64,000 nt of DNA from Methylobacterium terrae. Lineage in GTDB: Bacteria > Pseudomonadota > Alphaproteobacteria > Rhizobiales > Beijerinckiaceae. Within the stretch, counting starts at the first letter, position 1. Every line of letters begins with the position of its first letter. The position numbers and the translations under genes are program-made. Below, one piece after another: positions 40,867 through 48,394 of this stretch. The notes under the pieces were generated by a model. That model was not told the origin of the DNA. It searched no databases and saw only the letters and a list, made by a program, of their open reading frames with translations. The DNA lies in NCBI RefSeq assembly GCF_003173755.1, contig NZ_CP029553.1, positions 5,026,001-5,090,000 on the forward strand, read 5' to 3'.

Positions 40867-41144
40867 CCGGTCTCCTGTAGGCCGCCCCCGGGGGACGGCC
40901 GATCGGGAGGTTTCGCGCAACGCAGTTCGCGCCCGAGGGCGCATCGCGCTGTCGGGCGTTGACCTCCGGCCTCACGGGCCGGTCGGCGTCGAGACGAGAC
41001 CTCGTCCTGAGAGGCGCGGCCTAGCGGTCCATGAACGGATTGTCAATGCGCGGGAGGCGCCGCCCCCGGCGCGGCGGGCGGTCTTTACCGGTTCTTAACC
41101 ATGGCGGGGATTAACTCGGGGTCGAGATTCGCAGGAGACGCGGT

Positions 41145-45908: not shown

Positions 45909-47024
45909 ATGTCCCATAACAGCTTCGGCCACCTCTTCCGCGTCACCACCTTCGGCGAGAGCCACGGCCCGGCCCTCGGCTGCGTCGTCGACGGCTGCCC
46001 GCCGCTCATCCCGCTCGATGCGGCGGAGATCCAGGCGGAGCTCGACCGCCGCCGGCCCGGCCAGTCGCGCTTCACCACCCAGCGCCAGGAGCCGGACCAG
46101 GTCCGCATCCTCTCGGGCGTCTTCGCCGACGATCGCACGGGCGGGCGCCCGCTCACCACCGGCACGCCGATCGCGCTGATGATCGAGAACGTCGACCAGC
46201 GCTCGAAGGACTATTCGGAGATCCGCGACAGCTACCGGCCGGGCCACGCCGACTACGCCTACGACGCCAAGTACGGCATCCGCGACTATCGCGGCGGCGG
46301 CCGCTCCTCGGCCCGCGAGACCGCCGCCCGGGTGGCGGCGGGCGCGGTCGCCCGCAAGGTGCTCCCCGGCGTCACGATCCGGGGCGCCCTGGTGCAGGTC
46401 GGCCCGCACGCGATCGACCGCGCCCGCTTCGATTGGGACGAGGTGAACGAGAACCCGTTCTTCTGCCCGGACCCGGTCGCCGCCGCGCAATGGGCGGAGT
46501 ATCTCGACGGCATCCGCAAGGCGGGCTCGTCGGTCGGCGCGGTGATCGAGGTGGTGGCCGAGGGCGTGCCCGTCGGCCTCGGCGCGCCGGTCTACGGCAA
46601 GCTCGACGCCGATCTCGCCGCCGCCATGATGTCGATCAACGCCGTCAAGGGCGTCGAGATCGGCGACGGCTTCGCGGCTGCCGCCCTGCGCGGCGAGGAG
46701 AATGCCGACGAGATGCGGCCCGGCAACGACGGGCGCCCGATCTTCCTCGCCAATCACGCGGGCGGCGTGCTCGGCGGCATCTCGACCGGCCAGCCGCTGG
46801 TCTGCCGCTTCGCCGTCAAGCCGACCTCGTCGATCCTGACCCCGCGCGCCAGCGTCACCCGCGACAACCGGCCGGTCGACGTCATGACCAAGGGCCGCCA
46901 CGATCCCTGCGTCGGCATTCGCGCCGTGCCGGTGGGCGAGGCGATGATGGCCTGCGTGCTCGCCGACCACGTCCTGCGCCACCGCGCCCAGGTCGGGGAG
47001 GGGGCAACCTTTCAGCCGGAGTGA
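45909..47024 (+). CDS. aroC: Chorismate synthase
   Basis: A 371-residue chorismate synthase, the last shikimate step (5-enolpyruvylshikimate-3-phosphate to chorismate, reduced FMN required). Signatures are [53 protein letters not shown] and [17 protein letters not shown]. The length matches the family. ATG 45909. The riboflavin gene starts 35-53 bp after its stop. FMN use links the two, though they appear to have separate promoters. Confidence 0.97.
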
Positions 47025-47036
47025 ACGATCGCGCCG

Positions 47037-47053
47037 TTTCAGTTTGACTGAAA
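47037..47053. promoter_or_regulatory. Perfect palindrome before the HTH-ribB gene
   Basis: TTTCAGTTTGACTGAAA: 7-bp arms with a 3-base centre. It overlaps the -35 of the promoter below and sits 24 bp before the HTH-encoding start. It is a candidate operator for the HTH domain of the same gene. Confidence 0.6.
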
Positions 47054-47071
47054 TCACCCGTGGGTTATGAC
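47044..47071 (+). promoter_or_regulatory. Candidate HTH-ribB promoter
   Basis: TTGACT (-35, 47044-47049), a 16-base spacer and TATGAC (-10, 47066-47071). Transcription would begin about 47078, at the GTG itself, so the mRNA may be leaderless or nearly so. Confidence 0.5.
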
Positions 47072-47077
47072 GGTGGG

Positions 47078-48394
47078 GTGAAACTCGGCGACTGGCTCCG
47101 ACAGCAGGGCGTGACCCGCCTCGACTTCGCGCGGCGCTGCGGGCTCTCGCCGGCGGCGGTGACGGGGTTGTGCAACAACCCCGAACCCTGGCTCTCGCGG
47201 GAGACGGCGGCCGCCGTGGCGCGGGTGACCGGCGGCGCCGTCACCCCCAACGACTTCCTGGGACTGGATTCTCCGGGGCTCGCTCCCCCGGGACAGGAGA
47301 TGCCCGTGACCCACGCATCGATCATCGAGGCCCTCGACGCCTTCGCCCGCGGCGAGATCGTGGTCGTCACCGACGACGACGACCGCGAGAACGAGGGCGA
47401 CCTCGTCGTCGCCGCCTCGCTCTGCACGCCGGAGAAGATGGCGTTCATCATCCGCAACACCTGCGGCATCGTCTGCGCGCCGATCACCGTCGCGGAGGCC
47501 AAGCGCCTGCGCCTCGAGCCGATGGTGGCCTCGAACGACGCGCCGCTCGGCACCGCCTTCACGGTCACGGTCGACGTCAAGCACGGGCTGACCACCGGCA
47601 TCTCGGCCGAGCAGCGCTGCAACACCGTGCGGGCGCTGGCCAACGGCAACATGGGCGCGACCGACTTCGTGCGCCCGGGCCACGTCTTCCCGCTGATCGC
47701 CAAGGACGGCGGCGTGCTGATGCGCTCCGGCCATACCGAGGCGGCGGTGGACCTGTGCCGGCTTACGAAGCTCCCGCCCGTCGGCGTGATCTGCGAGCTC
47801 GCCAACGACGACGGCACCGTGATGAAGGGGCCGCAGATCACGGCGTTCGCCGAGAAGCACGGCCTCAAGCAGATCTCGGTCGCCGAGCTGATCTCCTACC
47901 GCCAGGCGCGCGAGAAGCTGGTCGAGCGGGTCGGCAGCTTCCCGGTCAAGACCGAGTGGGGCGAGATGACCGGCTACGCCTACACCACGCCGTTCGAGCC
48001 GATGCAGCAATTCGCCTTCGTGCACGGGCGCATCGGCGAGGGCCGCGACGTGCTGGTGCGGCTGCACCGCTCGAACGTGGTGGCGGACGTAATCGAGGGC
48101 GGGCGCACGATCGAGGCGGTGATGCGCCGCTTCGCGCAGGAAGGCCGCGGGGTTCTCGTCTACCTGCGCGACGGCACCGCCGGGGTGCCGCTGTCGCAGC
48201 TGCCCGACGGGGCCGGCGAGGACGGGGCGGAAGCCGCACGCGTGCGCCAGTGGCGCGAGGTGGGGCTCGGCGCCCAGATCCTGCGCGACCTCGGCGTGGT
48301 CTCGATCCGCAACATCTCGAGCGCGGCACGCTCCTATGTCGGCCTGTCGGGCTTCGGCATCGAGATGGTCGGCGACGAGCCGCTGGAGGGGTAG
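47078..48394 (+). CDS. ribB: HTH-fused DHBP synthase with degenerate cyclohydrolase-II-like domain
   Basis: A 438-residue three-part protein. Residues ~1-65 form a YdaS/Cro-like helix-turn-helix (LDFARRCGLSPAAVTGL, then VTGGAVTPNDFLG). From ~75 comes DHBP synthase (RibB) with DDDDRENEGDLVVAA, RPGHVFPLIAKDGGV and RSGHTEAAVDL, making 3,4-dihydroxy-2-butanone 4-phosphate from ribulose-5-phosphate. Residues ~290-438 resemble GTP cyclohydrolase II but lack the CDCG-type zinc site, as in RibBX proteins. Starts: GTG 47078, GTG 47060 (6 residues longer) or GTG 47306 (RibB only, with AGGAG). It is not preceded by an FMN riboswitch; the palindrome suggests self-control. Confidence 0.88.
   Translation: MKLGDWLRQQGVTRLDFARRCGLSPAAVTGLCNNPEPWLSRETAAAVARVTGGAVTPNDFLGLDSPGLAPPGQEMPVTHASIIEALDAFARGEIVVVTDDDDRENEGDLVVAASLCTPEKMAFIIRNTCGIVCAPITVAEAKRLRLEPMVASNDAPLGTAFTVTVDVKHGLTTGISAEQRCNTVRALANGNMGATDFVRPGHVFPLIAKDGGVLMRSGHTEAAVDLCRLTKLPPVGVICELANDDGTVMKGPQITAFAEKHGLKQISVAELISYRQAREKLVERVGSFPVKTEWGEMTGYAYTTPFEPMQQFAFVHGRIGEGRDVLVRLHRSNVVADVIEGGRTIEAVMRRFAQEGRGVLVYLRDGTAGVPLSQLPDGAGEDGAEAARVRQWREVGLGAQILRDLGVVSIRNISSAARSYVGLSGFGIEMVGDEPLEG
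47295..47308 (+). promoter_or_regulatory. Internal ribosome-binding site and start for RibB without the HTH
   Basis: AGGAG (47295-47299), a 6-base spacer, GTG 47306-47308. It starts at the RibB domain (VTHASIIEALDAF). If used, one mRNA yields both an HTH-RibB and a free RibB-RibX form. Confidence 0.5.

Follow-up and report, generated by a model that had tools for sequence, protein, structure and literature searches.

A helix-turn-helix fused to the riboflavin enzyme RibB in Alphaproteobacteria: probable control of the fusion's own gene and, in one family, of a riboflavin importer gene

Within the 64,000-nucleotide stretch of the Methylobacterium terrae genome that was analysed as a whole (the window; contig NZ_CP029553.1, positions 5,026,001 to 5,090,000), the list of open reading frames contains a single plus-strand frame that runs from a GTG at 47078 to the stop at 48394 and encodes a protein of 438 aa, here called hth-ribBX. 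Only 53 bp separate the stop of the upstream gene from this start, and they hold the main operator, the promoter and the end of a second operator-like site. The features of the locus are:

45909-47024, plus strand: upstream neighbour in the list of open reading frames, putatively aroC (chorismate synthase) by the look of its sequence
47010-47026, no strand assigned: O2, auxiliary operator-like site, TTTCAGCCGGAGTGAAC, 27 bp upstream of O1 and overlapping the end of aroC
47037-47053, no strand assigned: O1, main operator, perfect palindrome TTTCAGT-TTG-ACTGAAA, covering the -35 element
47044-47049, plus strand: predicted -35 element TTGACT, read from the sequence, inside O1
47066-47071, plus strand: predicted -10 element TATGAC, read from the sequence, ending 6 nt before GTG 47078
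47078-48394, plus strand: hth-ribBX, with a helix-turn-helix (HTH; residues 1-62), a linker (63-79), a DHBP synthase domain (80-277) and a GTP-cyclohydrolase-II-like X domain (278-438), the boundaries being set by us
47078-47263, plus strand: HTH domain of Cro/C1 type (HTH_3), predicted recognition helix about SPAAVTGLCN, with G as residue 30
47295-47308, plus strand: predicted internal ribosome-binding site AGGAG (47295-47299) with a start at GTG 47306 (ATG at 47300), for a short, HTH-less RibBX

A family search with the window protein returned DHBP_synthase (PF00926) at residues 84-274 (E 8.8e-79, 263.9 bits), GTP_cyclohydro2 (PF00925) at residues 284-433 (E 9.4e-26, 90.8 bits) and HTH_3 at residues 7-52, the latter with 23.7 bits against a gathering score of 23 (25.8 bits when the N-terminal 76 residues were searched alone). 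The columns of the DHBP synthase motif DDDDRENEGD were invariant or at least 90% kept among 38 aligned sequences, and the X domain, which looks inactive, lacks the cysteine zinc motif, with 'eggrtieavm' in the window protein aligned opposite 'DCGPQLDAAL' of 4i14. The search and this alignment bear out the original prediction, made from the letters of the DNA, that an HTH, a DHBP synthase and a cyclohydrolase-II-like domain devoid of its zinc motif share one frame. That prediction had called the HTH 'YdaS/Cro-like': the Cro/C1 part stood, given the HTH_3 match, whereas the YdaS part did not, as the YdaS model PF15943 gave no match to the window protein at E <=1. Weak, below-cut-off matches to PF15943 were obtained for three fused relatives. 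The closest solved structure by sequence was the phage Cro protein 8co2 (E 0.0086), and the recognition helix was placed on the assumption of an analogy with Cro/C1. The ribA model TIGR00505 scored only 36 bits with the window protein (cut-off 205.85), and a better RibA-type match lies elsewhere in the genome (C1:4489105, 175.6 bits, itself below the cut-off). Since hth-ribBX is a single-copy gene in this 6.16 Mb, single-contig genome and the RibA-type match elsewhere is much better, we regard the gene as a RibBX to which an HTH has been added.

Searching with the 76-residue N-terminus (E <=0.01) gave matches in 71 of the order's 297 genomes; the best 46 were all in frame with RibB, and the window-type HTH-RibB fusion was read in these 46/297. 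Among the best 80 of 303 relatives of the HTH, at loci of named organisms, the domain was fused in frame to RibB in every case, the carriers including Methylobacterium, Bosea, Phreatobacter, Rhodoblastus, Ancylobacter, Azorhizobium, Alsobacter, Stappia, Pannonibacter, Pseudovibrio, Zavarzinia and others. The closest named relatives at the locus are Methylobacterium (L077-L089), with 82-98% identity over the HTH. A class-wide search gave HTH matches at E 1e-4 in 30 of 367 genomes, and among these two genomes of family f94, outside the order (G338, G560), were read as HTH-RibB. In 33 sequences the mean majority frequency was 0.74 for the HTH, 0.26 for the linker and 0.85 for RibB. Conservation of the HTH in homologues was one of the grounds on which the original prediction had proposed to be judged, and with the domain kept at 80/80 named loci the claim survives. 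Four genomes of the window's own genus encode a RibBX 83-85% identical but with neither the HTH nor the operator at ribB, which indicates that the HTH device is dispensable and has been gained or lost.

The palindrome over the promoter, singled out in the original prediction, was confirmed to be perfect. O1 is the sole match with <=2 mismatches in the whole genome, but a backward control pattern also gave one match, so the rarity of the site proves little by itself. Within the order, TTTCAGT-N3-ACTGAAA (<=2 mismatches) was found upstream of 43 of the 46 HTH-RibB genes, being weak in the other 3, and of none of 48 HTH-less RibBX genes (Fisher 1.3e-23, a value that ignores kinship and compares against controls picked by hand). 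These 48 controls, a minority of the HTH-less genomes, comprise 40 hand-picked among the matches listed, for which 'HTH-less' means without a window-type HTH, plus 8 others; when their whole regions were scanned, the best operator-like site had 3 mismatches and occurred in one of them. Among the named genes, 62/80 carried the operator (<=2 mismatches) within 150 bp upstream, against 0.05 in shuffles. A consensus-free palindrome score separated the groups poorly, a perfect repeat with 7-bp arms being present in 25/46 HTH-RibB promoters and in 4 of the 16 HTH-less promoters (out of 48) that were readable. Many of the deviant sites are still palindromic, as TTTTAGT...CTAAAA in Rhodoblastus and Chelatococcus-like genomes or TTTAAGT...CTTAAA in Zavarzinia. 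O2 is a weaker site, with 3 mismatches to the palindrome; an equivalent (<=4 mismatches) was present at 13/13 loci of named Methylobacterium (L077-L089), and 39/80 named loci showed paired sites at a distance of 26-29 bp, vs 0.0 in shuffles.

Additional sites with 1 mismatch were detected in six HTH-bearing genomes (L179-L183, L187 and L188; G237, G116, G254, G041, G147 and G042) and also in two genomes without the fusion (L184, L185); in the subset of sites that was read, no riboflavin gene beside them was recognised by eye. A palindrome TTTCATTTGCAATGAAA (or its reverse) recurs at equivalent positions in two genomes from the family of the window (L187 around 1672, L188 around 1511), where no neighbouring riboflavin gene was recognised either, and perhaps belongs to another regulator. 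Among operator targets beyond ribB, ribN alone stood out in the sites read.

This second target came to light in a family that we call Stappia-like, a label judged from tree neighbours, which was examined because one of its genomes had a perfect operator just upstream of an FMN riboswitch. The HTH was matched in 86 of the 87 genomes of the family; in the loci fetched, the fusion and the operator at ribB were both present in 30/30, and an FMN riboswitch was found in 58/87 genomes. The operator (<=2 mismatches) accompanied 50 of 52 FMN-riboswitch loci of ribN type and none of 14 ribH loci, these 66 loci being the 67 above the cut-off minus L268 (truncated contig), with 4 weak matches outside the count. 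Loci were classed as ribN or ribH by sequence motifs, and one unclassed Stappia-like locus was read as ribH by eye. In a family search, the ribN-like protein of L160 matched EamA and the ribH of L161, from another family, matched lumazine synthase; the name ribN rests on the combination of riboswitch and EamA (compare the available part of PMC4418817). In genomes without the fusion the operator was found at 0/28 FMN loci, 18 of them ribN; this hand-picked control comes from 27 genomes, and inspection by eye assigned 9 of its 10 loci unclassed by motifs to ribN and the remaining one to a ribD operon. At the ribN sites the spacers vary and the arms are kept, operator and riboswitch are stacked upstream of the same gene, and at some loci the operator abuts the riboswitch start (-14). 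The two ribN loci without an operator are those of G670 and G708. G717 (90% complete), the sole genome of the family with no HTH match, nevertheless has the operator at ribN.

Stacking of the two devices bears on the suggestion, made in the original prediction, that the HTH might stand in for a missing FMN riboswitch. Upstream of hth-ribBX no riboswitch was indeed seen, RF00050 remaining below the Rfam threshold throughout the window; under the stricter filters applied in searching the order, none was found anywhere in this genome or in the 11 further genomes of its family that were searched. Overall, 7 of 54 HTH-RibB genomes had an FMN riboswitch against 92 of 243 others, in raw counts that ignore kinship. 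A simple replacement would agree with these figures. However, in the genomes compared by eye, among the matches listed, the riboswitch lies away from the RibBX gene, HTH or no HTH; in classifiable loci it accompanies ribN, ribH or a rib operon (the class of L163 is uncertain), and the Stappia-like family keeps both devices on one gene. Part of the suggestion stands, the riboswitch being rarer where HTH-RibB occurs, but the term 'replacement' holds only loosely, and we consider it unlikely that the HTH simply replaces the riboswitch. The sole Rfam match in the window at the gathering threshold was an ffh sRNA (40922-40973, minus strand, 60 bits).

Whether the fused HTH itself reads the operator was approached by comparing HTH types. 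The RibB proteins of family f23 bear a more distant HTH, and there a different palindrome, TATTAGCA-N-TGCTAATA, was present in 6/6 fusion carriers and 0/5 non-carriers; among the latter only G163 has a RibBX-length match (no HTH) among the matches listed, G186 being RibBA-like, G104 and G264 having no RibBX match at E 1e-30 and G280 not appearing among the matches listed. Within the window type, HTH residue 30 tended to follow operator position 4: at named loci, A or G went with C in 60/60 and Q or H with T or A in 19/20 (15/16 without the four weak Q-type sites of L105, L109, L124 and L131), and a second, partly overlapping set gave 42/42 and 5/6. A tree of 117 different RibBX parts offered only 4 supported independent contrasts, with a mean of 2.8 in the same direction and 0 opposite (p 0.25), and the covariation is thus suggestive but not significant, resting on few independent events. 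One case is a Bosea metagenome bin (L117:2501-3775) in which RibB falls among Bosea but HTH and operator alike belong to the other (Q, TTTTAGT) type, an apparent joint swap of domain and operator.

Unrelated XRE-type HTHs were also found on RibBX, in what look like independent events. In G029 (L067:28-1383, minus strand, family f30) the fused gene has yet another palindrome, GTTGCCA-AAA-TGGCAAC, which forms a further line of evidence on operator reading by the fused domain, and in G255 (L073:364-1671, plus strand, the window's own family), with another such HTH, no clear palindrome was seen upstream. Counting the window type and these two, an HTH has apparently been attached to RibB several times.

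These data also speak to the idea that the palindrome belongs to some other, separate transcription factor and that the fused HTH is a relic or serves another role. The genome of the window does contain another weak HTH match (C1:2917658, a frame of 155 aa, E 0.0038), small unfused HTH frames of 66-100 aa match in relatives, and G717 shows an operator at ribN with no HTH match. Such a factor would nevertheless have to account for an operator that tracks the presence of the HTH on RibB for two HTH types with different palindromes, for operator letters that follow the recognition residue of the fused domain, the Bosea bin included, and for an HTH sequence that is kept while the linker is not. 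We regard a separate factor as very unlikely. The central proposal of the original prediction, that the enzyme may regulate transcription directly, finds good support at the level of sequence comparison in the co-occurrence of HTH and operator, the tendency linking helix and operator letters and the sites at the importer gene, from which we infer actual DNA binding.

The -35 and -10 elements of the promoter are 16 bp apart in the window, and across the 80 named relatives the dominant letters are T at -12 (53), A at -11 (65) and T at -7 (50). Shine-Dalgarno cores before the HTH start were not in excess (4/80 vs 7.4 in shuffles). Given a -10 element that ends 6 nt before the start codon and this lack of enrichment, the hth-ribBX mRNA is predicted to be leaderless, beginning at or next to the start codon. 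The open frame extends further upstream, to a GTG at 47060; this candidate start was rejected because the codon falls between the inferred -35 and -10, leaving 47078 as the likely start.

A second start signal lies inside the gene, at the junction of HTH and RibB, where the protein sequence is poorly kept. An in-frame start with a Shine-Dalgarno-like core 4-11 nt upstream was found in 80/80 named genes (10.6 expected, judging by stretches of equal length in other parts of the gene), in 44 of 45 readable genes of the order (4.3 expected), 30/30 Stappia-like genes (3.2), 5/6 of family f23 (0.2) and 1/2 with other HTH types (0.2), sets that overlap in species. With a stricter five-base core the counts were 53/80 (4.4), 37/45 (3.0), 29/30 (1.6), 5/6 (0.2) and 0/2, respectively. 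A relic of an unfused start should decay, yet the signal has been retained, a hint that cells produce a short RibBX too and that the start at 47306 is probably used as well. One might go further and suppose that only this internal start is used, the HTH stretch being untranslated or seldom translated. The AGGAG and start in the window, their counterparts in all 80 named relatives and the HTH-less relatives, which make RibBX without any HTH, would fit such a scheme, but not the conservation of the HTH as protein across families or the -10 element 6-7 nt before the HTH start codon; we judge exclusive use of the internal start extremely improbable.

On these grounds we consider it highly probable that hth-ribBX is at once an enzyme and a transcription factor that represses its own gene, acts also at ribN in the Stappia-like family, and is translated from two starts. 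RibB enzymes are dimers. The DHBP synthase domain would make the four-carbon precursor of riboflavin, and the RibB dimer would pair the N-terminal HTHs and present two of them to the palindrome; bound to O1 over their own promoter, the paired HTHs would repress ribB. In the Stappia-like family the same protein would bind the operator before the riboswitch-controlled ribN, and synthesis and uptake could be adjusted together. The leaderless mRNA would yield the HTH form and the internal ribosome-binding site the short, enzyme-only form, and the ratio of long to short chains, or mixed dimers, may set the degree of repression. As to the signal, either the X domain or the DHBP synthase site is a candidate sensor, with FMN or a pathway intermediate as the likely ligand; the X domain, which is reported to regulate RibB in Shewanella, may read it.

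An operator over a -35 element, or abutting the riboswitch start, is in a position typical of repression, and from site position alone we infer the sign of the regulation. Since binding to O1 would block the -35 element, the likeliest output is repression, both of ribB and of any ribN that carries a site. Alternatively, the fusion could activate transcription of ribB, or regulate its own gene with no metabolite signal involved. The second site, at -68 and upstream of the -35, would suit activation; the main site covering the -35 in the window and those ribN sites that abut the riboswitch start would not, and we find this alternative distinctly unlikely. Returning to the repressor-enzyme, we judge about as likely as not a broader reading, according to which one gene gives two proteins, a leaderless repressor-enzyme and a bare enzyme from the internal ribosome-binding site, with dimerisation linking the amount of enzyme to repression, and 'plug-in' self-repression of cofactor enzymes is recurrent in Alphaproteobacteria.

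HTH fusions were also noticed on other cofactor enzymes. Family f32 has three genomes in which CoaBC, of coenzyme A synthesis, bears a similar short HTH (L057:452-1882, minus strand, and L059:498-1964, plus strand, by family search; L058:498-1937, plus strand, by resemblance); a palindrome ATATTAC-N7-GTAATAT stands just before the start codon in L058 and is less clear in L057 and L059. In family f60 an HTH is fused to the GTPase MeaB (L209:481-1677, minus strand, by family search; L217:484-1680, minus strand, by resemblance); at both loci the palindrome TTAACC-N5-GGTTAA immediately precedes the start codon.

By comparative analysis, a conserved enzyme and HTH in one chain and a predicted cognate operator at ribB and ribN were found, features expected of an enzyme-regulator. 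PutA and NadR are enzymes that double as transcription regulators, and the archaeal RbkR is a bifunctional riboflavin kinase and regulator of riboflavin genes. RbkR resembles HTH-RibB in being a riboflavin-pathway enzyme with a DNA-binding domain, and differs in that it is a kinase of archaea whereas here the enzyme is a DHBP synthase of Alphaproteobacteria. PutA, NadR and BirA likewise join an enzyme and a DNA-binding domain in one chain, although in other pathways, and we know of no enzyme-only form made from an internal start for any of these three. BirA is described as a ligase and repressor in abstracts. On the enzyme side, the nearest systems are the RibBX proteins of Shewanella, Aeromonas and Bradyrhizobium, which have the same two domains with the zinc cysteines missing; according to the available part of PMC10012899, citing others, the Shewanella X domain has no cyclohydrolase activity, yet it regulates RibB activity. 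To this the window type adds the N-terminal HTH, the operator, the predicted leaderless promoter and the link to ribN, none of which is mentioned in the available parts of the papers.

The FMN riboswitch (RF00050) also controls genes of riboflavin synthesis and import, and stands behind the operator at ribN in the Stappia-like family; unlike HTH-RibB it is an RNA, and it was not found in the window's genome. In the available parts of the respective papers, just one synthesis gene, ribB or ribH2, is said to be FMN-controlled in most Proteobacteria (PMC3766115), and a 2026 review describes bacterial riboflavin genes as controlled mainly by the FMN riboswitch (PMC13028884); the term 'DNA-binding' is absent from the available part of PMC12542839. 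No description of an HTH-RibB fusion appeared in titles and abstract openings among the matches listed, in a literature coverage that leaves out most subscription journals.

For many Hyphomicrobiales and for Zavarzinia, the role of transcription factor seems to fall to an enzyme of the riboflavin pathway. If true, the control of ribB in genomes with no riboswitch at that gene would be accounted for, and one protein would tie riboflavin synthesis to import. The circuit would be a small one, made of one protein, one or two operators, a predicted specificity residue and a gene with two predicted products.
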